From NCBI RefSeq assembly GCF_018688375.1, contig NZ_CP061318.1, positions 1,116,001-1,180,000 of the forward strand: a stretch of DNA of 64,000 bases, written 5' to 3'. The DNA is from Polynucleobacter sp. AP-Ainpum-60-G11 (GTDB lineage: Bacteria; Pseudomonadota; Gammaproteobacteria; Burkholderiales; Burkholderiaceae). The notes under the pieces are model-generated. The model worked only from the letters and a program-made list of their open reading frames with translations. It made no database searches and had not been told where the DNA came from. Made by a program: the position numbers and the translations under genes. Positions 1,436 through 9,384 of the stretch are shown piece by piece (position 1 is the first letter of the stretch; each line of letters starts with the position of its first letter).

Positions 1436-1535
1436 GGACGGGCCTCCCCGCATGGCGGTTTGGATAACCTGGTCAGGTCGGGAACGAAGCAGCCAAACCC
1501 AATTCTGTCAGTGCCGGGGGTCGGGCTCGTCCACC
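1436..1535 (+). ncRNA. ffs: 4.5S signal recognition particle RNA
   Basis: RNA scaffold of the bacterial signal recognition particle, binding Ffh for co-translational membrane targeting. The conserved core GGTCAGGTCGGGAACGAAGC with the following AGCC and the GTGCCGGG segment matches the small bacterial SRP RNA. The ends GGACGGGCC and GGGCTCGTCC pair to close the long hairpin, so this copy is complete. A TAAAAT at 1424-1429 is a plausible -10 box. The gene is the integration target of the element that follows: its last 92 bases recur at 9293-9384. Confidence 0.95.
1444..1535 (+). repeat. Left attachment repeat (attL), within ffs
   Basis: 92 bases identical to 9293-9384 at a constant offset of 7849. 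The flanking bases differ (C versus T on the left, C versus T on the right), so the repeat ends are sharp. It lies inside the functional SRP RNA gene. Confidence 0.9.
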
Positions 1536-1596
1536 CTATTTATACAAGTGGTTGATCTAAATGGCTTTAGTTTTTCATATGCCATCAAATTGATGA

Positions 1597-1621
1597 TTTG
1601 TAGCACCTAGCTGTAACACCT
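1597..1621. repeat. Inner direct repeat near attL, candidate integrase arm site
   Basis: Contains TGTAGCACC and, after four bases, TGTAACACC. The 25-base block matches 9169-9192 near the other end with three mismatches. A repeated 9-mer with fixed spacing just inside each attachment repeat is what arm-type binding sites of tyrosine integrases look like. The sequence identity is seen; the role is inferred. Confidence 0.6.
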
Positions 1622-1655
1622 TGGGTATCTATTGACTAACTAATCAAGGATATTC

Positions 1656-2852
1656 ATGGCAAATCTAACGGGCTTATTCCAACGAGGATCAATCTACTAC
1701 GTGCGCATTGTTTTGCCACGCGAACATCAATTAAGAAGTAGCTATAAGAATGGGTGCTACGTCGCAACTTTAGGTACATGCACATACCGGGAGGCACTTC
1801 TCAAGGGGACAATAAAGAGAGCTGAGATCCTTGGCTACTCAACCATTGGAGCTACCAATACACCTCTACAGGAAAGCCTCAGAAGCCTCACATTAAGTCA
1901 GATATTCATTCGGTGGCAAAGAGCTTCACCACGCTCTAGAGACTCTCTAAATGCCTGTAAAAGATCTCTAAGGTTCTATGAAGAGTTTACAAAGAATCCC
2001 CCTATTAATGAACTCAGTAGAGAACAGGGGGATGGCTTTAGGGCATGGCTTCAAGCTCCGGATAGAAACACAACATCCAAGACTGCAAGGGATCGACTTG
2101 TATGGATCAAGTCCTTAATAAAGTACGCACAAGTAGATCTTGGGTTGCTCCAAAGACATCCATGGGAAGGGATTGATATCAAAACTACCACCACCCATAA
2201 GCGCAGACCTTGGGATACATCCGAATTACAAACTCTTTTTGGGCAAGCCCTTCATACAAGCTATTCATTTCCAAGAGATTGGAGGGCTGGTGCTGATGCA
2301 AGCTACTGGATACCTCTTCTAGGGCTATTTATGGGAGCAAGACTGGGTGAACTATCCCAGCTCAGAGTAATAGATATTTGTACCGAGGCACACATCCCCG
2401 TGATCTCAATTACTGATGAATGCGACTTCCAAAAGGTCAAGACCCCATCAAGCATAAGAAAGATTCCAATCCATAGTGAGTTAATTCGATTGGGATTTTT
2501 AGACTATGTTTCCGACTTAAAGACGGACAAAAAAGAGTTGCTTTGGTCGGATCTATCCATACGGAAAGATAAGCCAGGGGGTTACTTCTCAAATTGGTTT
2601 GGGGAATACAGAAAATCTATTGGACTTAGCAAATACCCAGACTTCCATTGCTTTAGGCACACGGTAAGGAGTCAATTAGCTGAAGCAGATGTATCCGAGG
2701 CGATGATAGATTCAATCCTAGGGCATCAAATTAAAGGAAGTGCTGGCGCAAAGATTTATTCCCATAAGACAGTTGCAATGCTAAGTAAAGCCATCGAGAC
2801 ACTGAGCTATTCCGGACTGCCACTCCAGAGGATTTACAGGGGAAGAATATAG
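1656..2852 (+). CDS. Tyrosine recombinase / integrase of the ffs element
   Basis: Site-specific recombinase (398 residues) expected to integrate and excise this element at ffs. The N-terminal part (GLFQRGSIYYVRIVLPRE) resembles the arm-binding/DUF6538-type region of many island integrases; a SAM-like core-binding segment lies around residues 70-160. The catalytic C-terminal domain shows the first arginine in GARLGELSQ, HCFRHTVR (His-x-x-Arg), GHQ and the nucleophile tyrosine in AKIYSHK. The ATG at 1656 follows an AAGGA stretch. Its place 120 bases from attL, reading into the element, is the usual arrangement. Confidence 0.93.
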   Translation: MANLTGLFQRGSIYYVRIVLPREHQLRSSYKNGCYVATLGTCTYREALLKGTIKRAEILGYSTIGATNTPLQESLRSLTLSQIFIRWQRASPRSRDSLNACKRSLRFYEEFTKNPPINELSREQGDGFRAWLQAPDRNTTSKTARDRLVWIKSLIKYAQVDLGLLQRHPWEGIDIKTTTTHKRRPWDTSELQTLFGQALHTSYSFPRDWRAGADASYWIPLLGLFMGARLGELSQLRVIDICTEAHIPVISITDECDFQKVKTPSSIRKIPIHSELIRLGFLDYVSDLKTDKKELLWSDLSIRKDKPGGYFSNWFGEYRKSIGLSKYPDFHCFRHTVRSQLAEADVSEAMIDSILGHQIKGSAGAKIYSHKTVAMLSKAIETLSYSGLPLQRIYRGRI

Positions 2853-3019
2853 GCTAATAATTGCCCCACTCGGGTAACTCAACACCAACCTGAAGTCATG
2901 CCATAGGTTTTCCAACCGGGAAACCCAAGGTAGAAACTTTGGGTTGAATTGCTGACCGTTAAGGACCCAAAGCAGACTTTAGCGAACATAACCTACGCCG
3001 AGAAATGCTTGAAACTAAC

Positions 3020-3240
3020 CTAGCGAGGATTTATAAAAAACTTATTTTTTGATACAGGCAAATGAGTCAAAATTTTATCCAAGCCCTTGCACTCCATCAA
3101 GCTGCCATCCTCGAAATTGAAATCATTTTTAATAACCTCATGGGTAGCTAGTGAAACTTGGACTCTACCTGGCTTTGATGTCGACTCCACTCTGATTGCA
3201 GTATTTACATTGTTACGACATAGGCAATATGATAATTTTG
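3020..3240 (-). pseudogene. Remnant of a class III adenylate/guanylate cyclase (C-terminal end of catalytic domain)
   Basis: The minus-strand frame ending at TAG 3020-3022 reads NNVNTAIRVESTSKPGRVQV, then LATHEVIKNDFNFEDGSLME and CKGLDKILTHLPVSKNKFF. This is the end of a class III cyclase: the VNTAxRxES motif with the catalytic Asn and Arg, the SKPGxxQVS turn, the FxFEDxGxxxxKG strand. Upstream of it the frame is broken and no start exists; the rest of the domain is missing. It lies just beyond the 3' end of the intact cyclase and differs from it (NTAIRVES versus NLASRLEG), so it is a second cyclase gene largely deleted, not a tandem copy. Bases 2853-3019 show nothing else. Confidence 0.8.
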
Positions 3241-3282
3241 CATATCCTGTAGTAACTGAGGAAATATCCCTTAATTGTTACT

Positions 3283-5253
3283 TTACTTGTGCAGAAATAC
3301 ATACTCGCCACCCCAATCATGCCCCGGAGGATTATCTTTATATTCTCGACAACGCTCTATAAAAATTTTGCAAGCTTGATCATCTGGGCGTAAACCAAGA
3401 AGTTTTTCAAATCTAAAAGTAGCTTTATCCCAGTCTTTTTCTAAATATGAATTTACAGCCTTACTAAACATCTCAAAAAACTCTGCATCCGAGCCAGTAA
3501 CATCACCTTTACGAGAGACCAATTCATAAATAGGGACTGGCTCTGACTTGCCCTTAACAACAACTATATCTAGCAACCTATAAACAAAATCATCGGGCAA
3601 TTCATTTAGTACGGATTGGCTAATAATGATAGAGGTTGAATATTCCTTATTGAGTCCTTCAAGCCGACTCGCAAGATTAACTGGATCTCCCATTGCTGTA
3701 TAACTTAAGCGCTGATCTGAACCAATATTTCCCACAACAACATCGCCTGTATTTAGTCCAATTCGTGTTCTAAATGCGGGACGTCCTTGGTTAGACCATT
3801 CTTGAGCCAATATTTTAAGGCGAGCATTGCATTCAATTGCCGCCAGACAAGCTTGAGTTGCATGATCAAGAGTCTTATTTGGGGCGCCCCAAAACGCCAT
3901 GATTGAATCACCAATATATTTATCAACGGTCCCACCATGTTTTAAGATGATTGAAGTCATCTCAGTTAGGTATTCTGAAATTTGACTAGATAATTCGTTC
4001 GGCGTGAGTTTTTCTGAAATTGATGAAAAATCTGCAATATCAGAGAAAAAAATCGTTAGGCGCTGTCTTTCCCCAGAGGCATCAATCTCCTCTCCTTTTC
4101 GAATGAGTTGTTGAACAAGTTCGGCTGGAATGTATTTTTTGAAGGAGCGCAATCCTATTTTCATTGCGTTCATAGCTTCAACAAGCCCCTTTAGCTCTTC
4201 TAGCTTCGCTGGAATTTTGATTGCGTCATCAAGCTCAAAATTTTTGATTCTTTCCGTCTCAATCACTAAACCCTTAATTGGCAAAGTAATCATCCGGTAG
4301 AGCAGGAGTATGATTCCCGAAGACAGTAAAAAGCCTAGTAGGCAAATTAATATTGCATTATTTTTAATTTTTGAAAGAGCGCTAAAGTAATCTGTTGAGC
4401 CAACAAATTTCAATAAAATACTATAATCACCTTGAAAATTTTTAACCGGTATGTAGAGAATTTTTACATTTGAGGATTCATCTAGCTCAGCCAAAGGTAC
4501 ACCCGCTTTGGCACTTTTTATTACATACTCCTCGGGCATCAAATTCTTAAAAAACTTTTCTTTAGAATCACCGATCGATTGAATCAATGCGCGATCATCA
4601 ATAGAGCCTGAACCACGAGCTAGGTTATAGATTGCCCAATTACCTCCATAGCTTTTAACAAATCTGCTTAATAATTCATGACCCAACTCATAACCAGACT
4701 CCAGGGTGCCTATATGCTTAGAATCCAAAAATAATGGGAGGGCGGAACGAAACCCGTAGCCGGTTGATCCTTGAGACAAGCCAGACACAATGGATTTAGT
4801 TGAATTTACTTTATTTATATTCGGGCGATTTTCAACAGAATCATTGAATTTCTCAGGCGATTGGGCTCTATAAAAGATTTTCCAATCGGGTGACTTTTCA
4901 GGTTTGTAAATGAATTGAAGCTGACTAAAGCCCAATGGCTTTATATCCTTCCAAATATTGTCCGCTATAGGACGAATAAGATCGCGATCAGATTTGGAAA
5001 TTGCATTTATTAGCGAAGTATTTTTTGAAGTAGCAATCGCCACGGCATCAGAAAGCTTTTGAACTTCATCTACCTTGTCGTATACGCCTTCAATTATTAC
5101 TGCATTAGCCAGTTCTTCTGAATTTTGAAGCAATAAAACAGTTTGCTTATAAAAAATTACCGTTAAAAGAATCAACAAAATTTGAATCCACAAAAATACC
5201 AGTACAAATGAATTTTTGAGCTTAAATATTTGAGTCCATTTGGTTAAGTGCAT
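3283..5253 (-). CDS. Membrane-bound class III adenylate/guanylate cyclase with dCache_3-like sensor
   Basis: Makes cAMP or another cyclic nucleotide in response to an external signal. Numbering from the upstream TTG at 5283: TM1 about 26-46; periplasmic domain about 55-300 with GFSQLQF, PEKF, NxxKSIVSGLSQGSTGYGFR and HIGTLESGYEL, the signature of the double-Cache dCache_3 sensor; TM2 about 309-331; HAMP-like linker; catalytic domain about 405-590. Metal aspartates are D415 (FFSDIADF) and D459 (YIGDSIMAFWG); the transition-state pair is N536 and R540 (VNLASR). A roughly 70-residue tail follows. I prefer the ATG at 5251-5253 (AAGG ahead of it). Divergent from the phosphodiesterase/binding-protein pair, about 150 bases apart. 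Substrate base cannot be told from sequence alone. Confidence 0.9.
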   Translation of the reverse strand: MHLTKWTQIFKLKNSFVLVFLWIQILLILLTVIFYKQTVLLLQNSEELANAVIIEGVYDKVDEVQKLSDAVAIATSKNTSLINAISKSDRDLIRPIADNIWKDIKPLGFSQLQFIYKPEKSPDWKIFYRAQSPEKFNDSVENRPNINKVNSTKSIVSGLSQGSTGYGFRSALPLFLDSKHIGTLESGYELGHELLSRFVKSYGGNWAIYNLARGSGSIDDRALIQSIGDSKEKFFKNLMPEEYVIKSAKAGVPLAELDESSNVKILYIPVKNFQGDYSILLKFVGSTDYFSALSKIKNNAILICLLGFLLSSGIILLLYRMITLPIKGLVIETERIKNFELDDAIKIPAKLEELKGLVEAMNAMKIGLRSFKKYIPAELVQQLIRKGEEIDASGERQRLTIFFSDIADFSSISEKLTPNELSSQISEYLTEMTSIILKHGGTVDKYIGDSIMAFWGAPNKTLDHATQACLAAIECNARLKILAQEWSNQGRPAFRTRIGLNTGDVVVGNIGSDQRLSYTAMGDPVNLASRLEGLNKEYSTSIIISQSVLNELPDDFVYRLLDIVVVKGKSEPVPIYELVSRKGDVTGSDAEFFEMFSKAVNSYLEKDWDKATFRFEKLLGLRPDDQACKIFIERCREYKDNPPGHDWGGEYVFLHK

Positions 5254-5403
5254 GCTCGCCTTTTTCTTTGCATCATTTTGCAAAAGAATTAATTAAACTC
5301 ATGGTGTGTAGTCCAGTGGATTTTATTTCTAGTCTAGCCGAGCTAATTTGGTTTAAGCTTGGGCTAATCGCCCGTAGATACTATCAAATTTTTATAGCGT
5401 CAT

Positions 5404-6297
5404 ATGCCTAAATCCATCCTTAATAAGGCATTAGCCGAACTCAAGACCGCCGGGAAAAAAGATTCTTCGGGGAAACCCTTAGACGCACTAGAGAGTCTGT
5501 TTGAGTGCTCGCAAAATTATCAAGGAAATTTTAGAGGCTTTATTAAGGAGTTAATCCATACTACCTTCTGGGAATCCCAAAACTACTCCGCCAACCCTTA
5601 TCCCAAGATTTGCATTGAGCTAGCAGCACTTATTGATTCTCATAATAGCTCTCTGGGGTACGTAGAACCTGCCTACCACTCACGCAAGCATTTTCAAGAC
5701 GTCTGTCTCGCGCTTACTGCCTTACTAGATCAACCTATTAAACCTGTACAAAAAAAATATGATTCTCATGATTCATGGGAAATTTCCAGAGAAGATGCCT
5801 GGCTCTTGCTATTTTGCGCTATCGCTCATGATTTTGGTCATAACGGATCCACCAATAAAACACCGTCAGAATTAGAAAAGTTCAGCATTGAGAACACTCG
5901 AATGTTTTTATCCCAATCCACCCCTGACCCAGCTGAAATAAAAGAGCTGCTAGCGAAGCAAATTGAACCCATCATTTTGGCAACAGATCTCTCCACTTTA
6001 AGTCTCTTGTTTGCCAAATTTACTGAACCAACAGCAAACCCTACAAGGGTCGACTGTATGTCTATGCTGATAGTAGAGGCCGATCTGCTAGCAAGTGCAT
6101 TGCCCATGCGAGGTAAATTATTAGGAATACTACTTGGGCAGGAGTGGGCGTCTAGCAACCCAAAGGCAGCCGTATTAGTATCAAGCGATCAGGGTCGCCT
6201 ACAGTTCCTGGAATATATTCGGTTTATAAGCCCTCATGCGATCATGTTAAAAATGGAAGATATTCGTAACCAGTCTATAGAGCAATTAAAGGATTAG
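5404..6297 (+). CDS. Class I-like cyclic-nucleotide phosphodiesterase (HD-type)
   Basis: Predicted to hydrolyse the product of the divergent cyclase. The 297-residue protein carries the metal-site pattern of the PDEase_I family rather than a generic HD domain: YHSRKHFQDV (residues 91-100, matching YHNxxHaxDV), AHDFGHNG (141-148, the His-Asp pair plus second His), ILATDLS (191-197, matching the ILATDxS helix) and VEADLLA (224-230, the late metal Asp). There is no signal peptide or membrane segment, so it is cytoplasmic. Three bases separate its stop from the start of the binding protein, so the two are co-translated. Bacterial PDEase_I-type enzymes are much rarer than CpdA-type ones. Confidence 0.82.
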   Translation: MPKSILNKALAELKTAGKKDSSGKPLDALESLFECSQNYQGNFRGFIKELIHTTFWESQNYSANPYPKICIELAALIDSHNSSLGYVEPAYHSRKHFQDVCLALTALLDQPIKPVQKKYDSHDSWEISREDAWLLLFCAIAHDFGHNGSTNKTPSELEKFSIENTRMFLSQSTPDPAEIKELLAKQIEPIILATDLSTLSLLFAKFTEPTANPTRVDCMSMLIVEADLLASALPMRGKLLGILLGQEWASSNPKAAVLVSSDQGRLQFLEYIRFISPHAIMLKMEDIRNQSIEQLKD

Positions 6298-6300
6298 TGC

Positions 6301-6858
6301 ATGACAGACAACCCCAAAGAAGCCTCGATTGCCACCATCCCCTTTTTCAAAGGCCTTCCAGCACCAGATTTAATGGCCATCCTGGGAATTACTTCAACAA
6401 AAAAAATAGAGACTGGTGAAAATCTCTTTACTCAAGACGATCCTTCAGATGGTCTTTATGTATTGCTATCAGGAAAACTTCAAATCTACATCTTTAGCGG
6501 ATTTTCCGGCGGTGCGCCCAAAGTTCTCGCCGAAATCAATCCAGGGCAATATGTCGGAGAGATGGGTCTATTGGATGGTCAAAATCGCTCTGCTTCAGTC
6601 AAGGTATTACAAGGGGGGGAGGTTATGTTTATACCTACGGTCGGATTTGCAGTTCTATTAGAAAGTCATCCGCATATCGCTAAAGAGGTGGTTAACTGTC
6701 TTTGCGACATGATTAACAATCAGCCGAAACTTGTCATACGCTCTGAAAAAGCAATCTTAGTTAAAGAAAAACGATTGGCATCAAGTTTGTCGAATATGAA
6801 AGCCCTCTGCGCAATTCTACGAGAGCATAATAAATACTTAGCCATTGGGTCCAAGTAG
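6301..6858 (+). CDS. Stand-alone cyclic-nucleotide-binding (CNB) domain protein
   Basis: 185 residues with one cNMP-binding beta roll, about residues 12-135. The phosphate-binding cassette GEMGLLDGQNRSA (86-98) has the Glu, the conserved glycines and the Arg that contacts the cyclic phosphate, so binding should be intact. The C-terminal part (about 140-185) is a Lys-rich helix with no helix-turn-helix, no kinase, no channel and no membrane segment, so it is not a CRP-type activator. It must act by binding a partner. It follows the phosphodiesterase by three bases. The role as effector or buffer of the cassette is inferred. Confidence 0.88.
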   Translation: MTDNPKEASIATIPFFKGLPAPDLMAILGITSTKKIETGENLFTQDDPSDGLYVLLSGKLQIYIFSGFSGGAPKVLAEINPGQYVGEMGLLDGQNRSASVKVLQGGEVMFIPTVGFAVLLESHPHIAKEVVNCLCDMINNQPKLVIRSEKAILVKEKRLASSLSNMKALCAILREHNKYLAIGSK

Positions 6859-7123
6859 CAATTGTTACTAAAAAAATATAAGTATTAAATTTACTAATAT
6901 CGTAGTGCAGAGGACCTGAGGTCTTATGCCGCGGGAATTTCTGAAGGGCTCACGATGGCCGTTTTGAGACATTCACCGTAGATATTTTGAAATAAAAATT
7001 TGTCCGGGGGCTCGATCAAAGCAAAGGAGAAAGACCCCCGTATGGACCTCCTACTTTTTCCATGAGCAGTAATGATAAATAACGCACACAACGATGATTG
7101 CGTAATGTTAATATTTAGCGCCA

Positions 7124-7450
7124 ATGAAACCCCATTTTACGCAAAAAGAACTTAAGGAGTGATTGGCTCCCGTTGCTTCGCAAAGAATAGTAAAACAACT
7201 TTCTGGTGAAATTGGCGCATCATCAGGACTCAACATCAAAAAATACTGGCGGTAAGCCGGTCAATACTTCTGCAAGGGATGCAGTAAGCAAGCCAAACGG
7301 AGAAAAGTAAAGTCAATAACGGCTAAAAGTAATGTAAAGGCTACGCCAGCAAAATGTAAAACCTGTGAAATTAGTTTTCAAACCTCCATTCATGATCAGA
7401 TAAATACACTGGAACACAAAGCCAAAAGACTTCTCTCAGTGGGCGCCTAA
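7124..7450 (+). pseudogene. Decayed small Cys/Lys-rich gene with two in-frame stops
   Basis: One frame runs 109 codons from ATG 7124 to TAA 7448-7450 but is interrupted by TGA after MKPHFTQKELKE and by TAA after GLNIKKYWR. The rest contains FCKGCSKQAKRRK and CKTCEISF, two CxxC pairs around a basic stretch, then a helical tail ending EHKAKRLLSVGA. A frame this long that stays plausible through two stops suggests a recently inactivated zinc-ribbon DNA-binding type gene. Family not recognised. Bases 6859-7123 upstream hold nothing I can support. Confidence 0.55.
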
Positions 7451-7458
7451 TTCATATG

Positions 7459-7719
7459 TTATTTAAGGACTTTAGAAAGATCCTTTAGCCTTACTAGGTT
7501 CAGCTCCTTCATCCCAACCATAGTAATAATCCCAGCCATCATTAAGGCATCCAGTGCATCAGACATTTCCCTGAGTAAATTATCTGGCTCACCATCAAAC
7601 GATTGAGCTGCCTCAGATATAAGTACGGATCTTTCCCACCCCAATTCACTTCCTTTAGTTTTTAGCAAGCCATACAAAATCATTGATGGGGTATTGGTTG
7701 GTTTCTTAGCCATTCTCAT
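7459..7719 (-). CDS. Hypothetical protein, 86 residues
   Basis: Start supported by AAGGAGAT seven bases ahead of the ATG. A basic N terminus (MRMAKKPTN) is followed by a mostly helical protein with SDALDALMMAGIITMVGMKE near the end, which could be a small helical dimer or winged segment. No family recognised. It lies convergent with the decayed gene at 7124-7450 inside the ffs element, where such small genes are often regulatory or accessory; that is only context. Confidence 0.6.
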   Translation of the reverse strand: MRMAKKPTNTPSMILYGLLKTKGSELGWERSVLISEAAQSFDGEPDNLLREMSDALDALMMAGIITMVGMKELNLVRLKDLSKVLK

Positions 7720-7975
7720 TCAGATATCTCCTTTTGCTCTATACAAGATAAGGATCGGAACCTTTAAAAGGGACTATTAATAAGTCATCACTTTTTCCAT
7801 AAGCATCACTGAAAAAAATTAAGCTTTGGGTGACTGTTACAGGGTGGAAGTAGTTTCTCAAATGAGAGCAAATAACTATTAAAAATTCCCATATTAATCA
7901 ATTACTTAAGATTACCTACGACTACAGGACTGAATTAACCCGATCCCAGGGCAATCCAAACAAAATAATCAGACA

Positions 7976-8284
7976 TTGCAGTCTGTATCAATAGTTTTTG
8001 AAATATCCAACATAGAAAGCGCCATCCATATGCATGAGCCAATAAGGAAAATCACATCGTTAAATTGCCCTAACGGCACAGTTGTTAATTTAAGGCTGAA
8101 TCATAGACAGGCATCTGACCTTCAAGGACTTTCTGAGTTGCTTGAAGAAACTCTTGAGACCCCAATCAGCAAAACCTTAGTCATCCGGAGGGCGCTAGCC
8201 AGATACCTGAGGGATGCTAACGCTATGACTAAAGAGTTACTGTTTGACGAAGGGCGACTCATCACCACTAATTACCGCAAATAA
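7976..8284 (+). CDS. Small hypothetical, possibly a ribbon-helix-helix-type regulator
   Basis: 102 residues if started at the TTG at 7976; the first ATG in frame is at 8030 and would give 84 residues beginning MHEPIRKITS. Neither has a clear Shine-Dalgarno. The middle (LNCPNGTVVNLRLNHRQASD) then SKTLVIRRALARYLRDAN looks like a strand followed by a helix typical of ribbon-helix-helix proteins. It sits 33 bases upstream of the DUF1376-like gene and probably shares its transcript. Confidence 0.5.
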   Translation: MQSVSIVFEISNIESAIHMHEPIRKITSLNCPNGTVVNLRLNHRQASDLQGLSELLEETLETPISKTLVIRRALARYLRDANAMTKELLFDEGRLITTNYRK

Positions 8285-8317
8285 CCAAAGTAAATAACGC
8301 CAAGAAAGAGGATGTGA

Positions 8318-8707
8318 ATGGAAAAGAAGAAAAAGAATGATCGTATGTCATGGTTTAAACACGATCCAGCTAAGTTCAATCAAGATACCTATGGACTATC
8401 GAGTCAAGCAGTTGGCATCTATATCAAGCTTATGAATCTGTACTGGATCAATCAGCAAAAACTTCCTGAGCAAAAGTCCGTGTGGCTGAGACAGCTTGGA
8501 GTCAACAGTGAATCTGAAATGGATGATTTGAATATGCTAATAAATGAGTTAGGTCTTGCGAATGATGGGGATGGCTTCTTAATTCCGGATCTAGATCAAC
8601 AACTTGAAGATATTCGAGGTTATAGCATTCAACAGAGTTCAAGAGCTAGCAGTAGATACAAGGAGACAAAACAGGTTGAAGTCAGCAATAGTGCAAAGGA
8701 TTTCTGA
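8318..8707 (+). CDS. DUF1376-like protein (phage/island replication-type)
   Basis: 129 residues with the DUF1376 pattern: WFKHDPAKFNQDTYGLSSQA then VGIYIKLMNLYWINQQKLPE and LRQLGVNSESEMDDL. In phages and islands these proteins lie in replication modules and often head a longer helicase-loader-like protein; here only the N-terminal domain is present before a Ser-rich tail. AGGATG lies close upstream of the ATG. Downstream, a 22-base segment near its 3' end (about 8652) recurs imperfectly at about 8772, hinting at local duplication or decay. Confidence 0.7.
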   Translation: MEKKKKNDRMSWFKHDPAKFNQDTYGLSSQAVGIYIKLMNLYWINQQKLPEQKSVWLRQLGVNSESEMDDLNMLINELGLANDGDGFLIPDLDQQLEDIRGYSIQQSSRASSRYKETKQVEVSNSAKDF

Positions 8708-8982
8708 CCCAATACGAGCGCAGTGCGAGTGCAGTGCCTATAGATAGAGATATAGACGGAGGAGAAATACTAGATACAGGGAGACAAACAGAATAGAAGA
8801 TATAAATAGTTTTTCTTATTTTTTTCATGGTGGCTCCCTATCTTTGCCTACTTTGTAATTCTCGAATTGGAATTTATCTATAGATTTATCTGTGTACGTC
8901 TGGTTTTGGGAGGATGTCGGGAGAATGGATCCTCCAATTAACCTAACTTATATTATTTATCGATTAACTAGTAGGAACTTTA

Positions 8983-9129
8983 ATGAATAAGAAAATTAAA
9001 ATAATCCACAGAAGCCACAAGAGCCAATACAAGACACCCGAAGGGTTGGTTGCTAAGTGGATAAGAAGGACCATCAAAAGAAGCCTGAGAGACCCTTTAC
9101 TGGTCTCAAAAGTCAATCTGATTTACTAA
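8983..9129 (+). CDS. Small basic ORF, 48 residues
   Basis: ATG 8983 with AGGA seven bases upstream, stop TAA 9127-9129. The product is strongly basic (MNKKIKIIHRSHKSQYKT start; AKWIRRTIKRSLRDP centre). It is the only frame I can support in the 8708-9292 interval near the right end of the element. Small basic proteins at this position can be excisionase-like, but no family resemblance is visible. Bases 8708-8982 otherwise hold only purine-rich sequence. Confidence 0.4.
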   Translation: MNKKIKIIHRSHKSQYKTPEGLVAKWIRRTIKRSLRDPLLVSKVNLIY

Positions 9130-9168
9130 GCTCGACAAGTCAGATTATTTGACAATAAATTAATGTTT

Positions 9169-9192
9169 TTTGTAGCACCCAGTTGTAGCACC
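9169..9192. repeat. Inner direct repeat near attR, candidate integrase arm site
   Basis: Two copies of TGTAGCACC with a four-base spacer (CAGT), matching 1597-1621 with three mismatches in 25. It lies 100 bases inside the right attachment repeat. Confidence 0.6.
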
Positions 9193-9292
9193 TGAGCCAT
9201 TCTTAGTCACATAGATTTATCGGGATATAAAAATATTTATTGCCCACTAAATCAATACCGGATACGATAGGAGTCAGATACCCAAGGGGTTT

Positions 9293-9384
9293 CTCCCCGC
9301 ATGGCGGTTTGGATAACCTGGTCAGGTCGGGAACGAAGCAGCCAAACCCAATTCTGTCAGTGCCGGGGGTCGGGCTCGTCCACC
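9293..9384 (+). repeat. Right attachment repeat (attR): truncated ffs copy
   Basis: Identical to 1444-1535. The bases before it (AAGGGGTTT) do not pair with the 3' end CGGGCTCGTCC, so the closing stem of the SRP RNA is lost and this copy is not expected to function as 4.5S RNA. It marks the right end of the element and may be mis-called as a second ffs gene. Confidence 0.88.

Follow-up and report, generated by a model that had tools for sequence, protein, structure and literature searches.

The window analyzed here, 64,000 nucleotides of the single-contig genome (1,906,556 bases) of Polynucleobacter sp. AP-Ainpum-60-G11, contains an integrative element inserted in ffs, the gene for the 4.5S signal recognition particle (SRP) RNA. 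The element carries three genes, hereafter the trio, coding for a membrane sensor cyclase, a class I cyclic-nucleotide phosphodiesterase (PDE) and a lone cyclic nucleotide-binding (CNB) protein. The trio is tentatively read, with a probability of about 0.45, as a transferable cyclic AMP (cAMP) module, whose effector would act on motility: a role in steering motility is suggested, since CNB relatives are mostly found in flagellated species. In the following, genomes are indicated by "G" and loci or contigs by "L".

The integrative element at ffs

The presence in ffs of an integrative element carrying the trio is demonstrated by two observations: a perfect direct repeat of 92 bp (92/92), shared by two copies of ffs, which Rfam locates at 1437-1534 and 9286-9382, and the occurrence of a single ffs in relatives. 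The repeat delimits an element of 7.9 kb (1444-9384), which includes, besides the trio, an integrase, the remnant of a second cyclase and three small open reading frames (ORFs), one of them primosomal-like; coordinates are reported in Table 1. In the dnaX region fetched from relatives, ffs is single in six out of six (G083, G096, G107, G085, G084, G087). When compared by blastn, the sequence of G096 (locus L084) is continuous past ffs and matches the side beyond attR; in G083, G107 and G084 other DNA is present between ffs and the next match. The earlier note, made from the sequence alone, had placed a signalling module inside an integrative element, and the repeat, the single ffs of relatives and the one unbroken ffs region confirm the element. 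An ancestral chemosensory locus, devoid of mobile elements, was also considered, as the chemosensory operon of G050 lies by dnaX too; it is refuted by the repeat and by the single ffs of relatives.

Relatives of the integrase (E <= 1e-20) are present in 5 of the 186 genomes of the genus survey, the window's own included. In G100 and G140 the integrase is also located at ffs beside dnaX, and a further ffs repeat, only partial, follows downstream; in the stretch fetched around the integrase, no ffs is found for G045 and for the contig-end copy of G151. The G100 element is similar in size, and its cargo includes a primase-helicase-like gene and a nuclease of the Aga type (pPIWI-associated, defence-type), while in the G140 element no further ORF of at least 60 aa is found besides the integrase. 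As these sister elements carry different or no detected cargo, the trio is regarded as cargo, and ffs as the insertion site for a family of small elements. In general, such genes are not found to travel with integrases: apart from the differing cargo of the two sister elements, no integrase is found at 50 other loci, 40 for the PDE and 10 others, mostly for the CNB gene, scanned by phmmer or by a crude motif scan.

The cyclase remnant (3059-3256) is 53% identical to the REC-cyclase of G050 over residues 308-373 of the latter, and scores 73 bits against that of G131. In relatives, REC-cyclases of this kind are the last gene of a chemosensory operon: the match suggests that the ancestor of the element probably carried a REC-cyclase input, whose replacement would have left the remnant behind. 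The range described in the earlier note, starting at 3020, is right as to the trio, but the remnant, which falls inside it, had been left unnamed.

Just past attR, between 10058 and 15070, the window features HNH, GIY-YIG/NUMOD and endonuclease VII-like genes, along with a cytosine methyltransferase.

Components of the trio and their relatives

The cyclase is composed, from the N to the C terminus, of a transmembrane (TM) segment, a dCache_3 domain, a second TM segment, a class III cyclase domain and a C-terminal tail (hydropathy peaks at 22-53 and 308-332). Class IIIb adenylate cyclases are characterized by two metal-binding Asp, by Lys and Asp/Thr, which select adenine, and by Asn and Arg, which stabilize the transition state. 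All are found at the sequence level in the window cyclase: D415, D459, K455, T529, N536 and R540 are kept in the alignment with CyaB of P. aeruginosa (3r5g), the nearest solved chain (1.4e-38). K455 and T529, matching CyaB, suggest cAMP as the product over other bases. The annotated start is a TTG; an ATG located ten codons downstream is equally likely. When the window cyclase (3283-5283) is compared with that of L029 (6992-8992), the proportion of nonsynonymous differences (pN) is 0.066 in the N-terminal sensor half, 0.019 in the catalytic part and 0.005 in the tail: the sensor half evolves faster than the rest.

Class I PDEs feature a metal site made of the motifs YHxxxH and HDxxH and of a downstream Asp. 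In the window PDE the corresponding residues (H92, H96, H142, D143, H146, D227) are unchanged across 52 aligned sequences, and the predicted fold is all-helical: the enzyme is an animal-type class I PDE.

In the CNB protein, G86, E87 and R96 are unchanged across 60 aligned sequences, and the phosphate-binding cassette (GE...R.A) is thus intact. The C-terminal tail (about 140-185) is also conserved: R174 is invariant, L163, N165, M166, L169 and N177 are invariant or nearly so. In the structure model (predicted local distance difference test, pLDDT, 89.8) the tail forms one short and one long helix, the latter at 163-183. Pfam finds no domain besides cNMP_binding at E <= 1, and the C-terminal helix-turn-helix of CRP/FNR proteins is absent; domain scans, PADLOC included, detect no TIR, TM, other toxic or recognised output domain. 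The family profile (alignment A4) scores 5e-61 against the solved protein PCR12 (TGME49_219070), and ranks eukaryotic kinase CNBs above bacterial regulators.

These data agree with the earlier description of the three products, as to the dCache_3 membrane cyclase with intact metal and transition-state residues, the PDEase_I motifs, the intact cassette and the lack of a recognised output domain. The arrangement of the genes had also been correctly described: the PDE and CNB genes are separated by three bases, and the cyclase gene is divergent from them. The 42-bp block upstream of the PDE gene (Table 1) is found at four distinct loci only, by a pattern search allowing mismatches. All three genes are under purifying selection in pairwise comparison: dN/dS is 0.08 for the cyclase (window vs G063), and 0.17 for the PDE and 0.10 for the CNB gene (both vs L093).

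The host genome contains no class III cyclase beyond that of the trio and the adjacent remnant, according to a PF00211 search; classes I and II were not searched for. Four CNB proteins are found (PF00027), the trio's included: the other three, 205-252 aa long, read as CRP/FNR-like regulators devoid of the cassette Arg, and none of the four reads as a channel. No CheA of the type present in relatives is found at 1e-60; two weaker candidates score below. As judged from these searches, the module appears self-contained in its host, where no other class III cyclase or, by reading, cassette-intact CNB is present.

Within the genus, PDE relatives are found in 44 of the 186 genomes, and 40 PDE loci were fetched besides the window's. 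In 21 of the 40, the PDE has a CNB gene within 1 kb: 13 are channel-size, 7 lone and 1 is cut by a contig end. In the remaining 19 no CNB gene is present within this distance, partly because of contig ends. Channel-size CNBs are MscS- or Ion_trans-type where tested by Pfam; the rest are so assigned by similarity. A cyclase is present within 9 kb of the PDE in 19 loci out of 40; when che genes are counted as well, the number rises to 22. The kind of cyclase varies. In G131, G091 and G050, the PDE-CNB pair is divergent from an MCP-CheA-CheW-CheB-CheR-REC-cyclase operon, where the REC-cyclase is supported by Pfam in G131, and the other names are given by reading and similarity. In G177 the CNB gene is followed by a sensor histidine kinase, supported by Pfam, and a REC-cyclase, and G156 appears similar. 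A CHASE2-type cyclase is found beside PDE-CNB in G143 (by Pfam) and in contig L093 (by reading); the end of L093 also contains a piece 92.5% identical to the window dCache cyclase, so that its PDE-CNB pair is flanked by CHASE2-like and dCache cyclases. L093 is labelled Cytophagaceae; its sequence is Polynucleobacter-like, and the label is therefore probably a binning error.

The co-conservation of the three genes, proposed as a check in the earlier note, is thus observed in part. PDE-CNB recurs (at 7 other genus loci and in L093), with some cyclase nearby in most cases; of the window cyclase itself, in contrast, the 186 genomes contain a complete copy in the host and in G063 only, and L093 contains a part. 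Between window and G063, the proportion of synonymous differences (pS) amounts to 0.38 in the cyclase gene and 0.61 in dnaX, and reaches 0.77 in the PDE and 0.79 in the CNB gene, the last two values being near saturation. As the cyclase falls below dnaX, and PDE and CNB above it, the cyclase is younger than the species split, PDE and CNB are older, and the input gene moved alone. From these comparisons, PDE-CNB is read as a recurrent pair, long established in the chromosomes of the genus, with an exchanged cyclase. In L035, L044, L045 and L050-L052, a chemosensory operon, which often includes a REC-cyclase, is found along with a PDE paired with a CNB-MscS-type channel: a chemosensory-to-ion-channel route via cAMP is possible at these loci.

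The profile of close relatives (A3), at 1e-25, detects 6 of 398 family genomes, all Polynucleobacter (1 of 25 genera). In a broader protein search, 1920 proteins are found at 1e-20, and more distant relatives exist beyond the 120 listed.

Table 1. Position, strand and supporting matches of the features of the element
Feature	Position	Strand	Support
Left ffs (4.5S SRP RNA), attL arm 1444-1535	1437-1535	+	Rfam RF00169, 71.3 bits
Tyrosine integrase	1656-2852	+	Phage_integrase 8.4e-08; PHROG integrase 1.1e-33
3' remnant of REC-type class III cyclase	about 3059-3256	-	Guanylate_cyc positions 116-179
Membrane sensor cyclase	3283-5283	-	Pfam: Guanylate_cyc 3.2e-22, dCache_3 3e-10
42-bp block upstream of PDE, probable promoter or operator	5350-5391	+	Conserved in window, L028, L029, L093
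Class I (PDEase_I) cyclic-nucleotide PDE	5404-6297	+	Pfam PDEase_I 2.5e-07
Lone CNB protein, 185 aa	6301-6858	+	Pfam cNMP_binding 2.9e-18
Small element ORF	7459-7719	-	No Pfam or PHROG match
Small element ORF	7976-8284	+	No Pfam match above cut-off, no PHROG match
DUF1376 ORF, resembles N-terminal part of primosomal-protein gene	8318-8707	+	Pfam 8.2e-10; PHROG primosomal protein 1.2e-08
Right ffs, attR arm 9293-9384	9286-9384	+	Rfam RF00169, 61.8 bits

Association with flagella and rival explanations

In the proposed mechanism, a periplasmic signal would bind the dCache_3 domain and set the activity of the cyclase; the cAMP produced would bind the lone CNB protein, through the cassette found in its sequence. 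The class I PDE, whose site is intact, would remove cAMP and reset its level, and the response would therefore be graded and reversible. The liganded CNB protein, via its conserved C-terminal tail, would contact a chromosomal flagellar partner and alter motility, as suggested by association. In relatives, a chemosensory array would feed the PDE-CNB output through the REC-cyclase; in the element, one sensor cyclase would replace that input.

The flagellar target is suggested by the distribution of CNB relatives, found in 12 genomes at 120 bits or more, a cut-off picked after the list had been seen. Flagellin (PF00669) is present in 66 of the 186 genus genomes: in 10 of the 12 with a CNB relative, compared with 56 of the remaining 174 (Fisher p 0.0007) and with 6 of the 33 with a PDE but without a lone CNB (Fisher p 0.0001), kinship being ignored in both tests. 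The PDE alone does not track flagellin upward (6/33 without lone CNB, vs 50/141; p 0.06), and genomes with a REC-cyclase, but without a lone CNB, feature flagellin in 3 cases out of 30. Flagellar genes are also found as neighbours: in G131 CNB-PDE lies 0.2 kb from FlaG, near FlhA; in G180 FlhB is found at 4.5 kb from the CNB gene, and in G063 a member of the flagellin family at 17.0 kb, while in G094 the distance between a broken CNB gene and flagellin is 0.4 kb. In a tree of 67 genomes based on dnaX, seven CNB tips fall on seven separate branches, indicating that the CNB gene was often gained or lost; all seven are flagellated. This is a quick tree, where some long branches are doubtful (G050 with G057), and G143, G156, G172, G177 and G180, out of the twelve genomes with a CNB relative, are not included for lack of a dnaX position. 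The earlier note had assigned to the CNB protein a partner not known: the lack of an output domain stands, and the range of partners may be narrowed by flagellin tracking and flagellar neighbours.

A number of observations weigh against a motility module. Flagellin is not found in two of the 12 CNB genomes, the drafts G172 and G156. The CNB copies of the window, G050 and G091 are located at least 90 kb from flagellin, and in several drafts the two genes are on separate contigs. When independent pairs are considered, 3-4 contrasts are informative and none is opposite, which makes for an underpowered sign test (p 0.125-0.25). As to the ligand, the residues by which CRP reads adenine are not retained in the CNB protein, according to a hand alignment. 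Control of PDE-CNB by a flagellar-type promoter was considered and rejected, as CTAAAC-N16-CCGTA/T is absent from the 42-bp block. The same pattern recurs upstream of flagellin and other ORFs (L028, L075, L128, L129, L131), and is probably a flagellar promoter of the genus type; shuffling gives an expectation of about 4 hits for its loose form.

A further such point, the location of CNB genes near secretin, T2SSE and GspF-like genes in G050 and G177, favors a rather unlikely alternative, where the same cAMP circuit is directed to type IV pili, to a secretin-type secretion system or to gene expression. PDE-CNB is followed in G050 by a pilin-like ORF, with secretin and T2SSE genes within 9 kb, and in G177 another CNB gene adjoins GspE/GspF-like ORFs, names being given partly by reading; besides, pili are described as under cAMP control in the Chp-CyaB system of P. 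aeruginosa (PMC12632253). The association with flagellin and the flagellar neighbours in G131, G063, G180 and G094 argue against such targets. The trio might otherwise tune ion flux, with the CNB protein as an accessory, in place of the CNB-gated channels, MscS-like or K+, found beside the PDE elsewhere, as the 13 channel-size CNBs of the 40 loci would suggest; the absence of a membrane domain in the lone CNB protein and of any channel among the four host CNBs makes this quite improbable.

Defence is improbable as well: if the cassette were Pycsar-like, or defensive in some other way, its cyclase would sense infection and its CNB protein would trigger arrest via a partner. PADLOC does match the cyclase to PycC models (best 7e-36) and the CNB protein to PycTIR (5.7e-13), and the sister element of G100 carries a defence-type nuclease. 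Yet the CNB protein lacks TIR, TM and any other toxic domain, a dedicated PDE would presumably blunt the alarm, and several relatives in the chromosome are connected with chemosensory operons; sensor and hydrolase do count against a plain Pycsar system, as anticipated in the earlier note. K455 and T529 are as in adenylate cyclases, though Lys at that site is not diagnostic by itself. Other residue sets, one including Lys, are reported for UTP and CTP (PMC11224242). Moreover, the PDE has no match in phages or plasmids, a pattern scan of viral contigs shows no relative of either PDE or CNB, and the CNB protein has one weak partial match, 32%, in plasmids. Finally, it is very improbable that the trio is passenger DNA in decay, without importance to the cell: the cyclase remnant and the short primosomal-like ORF would fit with decay, but the three genes are open and under the purifying selection reported above, and the 42-bp block is conserved.

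Significance and known systems

The role of bacterial cAMP is usually taught in terms of CRP and gene expression. A review (PMC11139211) states that in most bacteria cAMP exerts global regulation only via CRP. The module described here features, in a host with no other cassette CNB by reading, an animal-like class I PDE, a lone receiver, and inputs and outputs that are exchangeable across relatives. If the motility reading is true, a single integration event may be enough to move a whole second-messenger circuit, and a direct, testable link would exist among chemosensory arrays, cAMP and motility. In the literature searched, no paper joins Polynucleobacter with adenylate cyclase and none describes the trio; as far as this search shows, the components are known, and the novelty lies in their combination, in a class I PDE whose inputs and outputs can be exchanged, in the tail-bearing lone CNB family and in the packing at ffs.

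A more specific proposal, possible if on balance doubtful, would place the module beside the c-di-GMP-YcgR brake, as the equivalent for cAMP. The CNB protein, small and non-transcriptional, with a conserved tail of its own, would act directly on the flagellar machine; at the home loci, the array would signal through REC-cyclase and cAMP in place of CheY, with a class I PDE as the eraser. The element would pack eraser and receiver with a one-protein sensor, transferable to flagellated hosts in which no other protein with a cAMP-binding cassette is found.

YcgR is a c-di-GMP receiver acting on the flagellum, and the likeness, by analogy only, is in the proposed second-messenger receiver; the trio uses cAMP and a CNB fold, instead of c-di-GMP and PilZ. 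The CNB-gated MscS-like (bCNG) and K+ channels share, in sister loci, the same PDE and cyclase partners, but there the CNB domain is fused to the channel, while in the window it is free. In Pycsar, too, a class III cyclase is found beside a CNB gene, and PADLOC models match both; the trio differs by its dedicated PDE, sensor domain, adenylate-type base residues and lack of a toxic effector domain (TIR, TM). Because of this last feature membership in Pycsar is not supported, and the PADLOC matches are judged to reflect shared domains.

CbpA of P. aeruginosa is described, in a review (PMC7247823), as a cAMP receptor besides Vfr, located at the cell pole, with a suggested bearing on the polar flagellum. 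It resembles, by description, the proposed role of the window CNB as a non-transcriptional cAMP-binding protein; it is not known to belong to a cyclase-PDE cassette. The Pil-Chp/CyaB/Vfr/CpdA system of the same species shares with the relatives of the trio an array feeding a class III cyclase, and CyaB is the nearest solved relative of the window cyclase. The window output, however, is a lone CNB protein rather than a CRP-type regulator, and the PDE is class I, a class different from that of CpdA-type enzymes. In the relatives, moreover, the cyclase itself bears the REC domain, and in the window the set is mobile and the array absent. In P. aeruginosa cAMP serves motility, according to PMC12632253 and PMC3019171. 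By analogy, the trio would work like the Chp-CyaB route and, in its proposed output, like YcgR, while being a member of neither.

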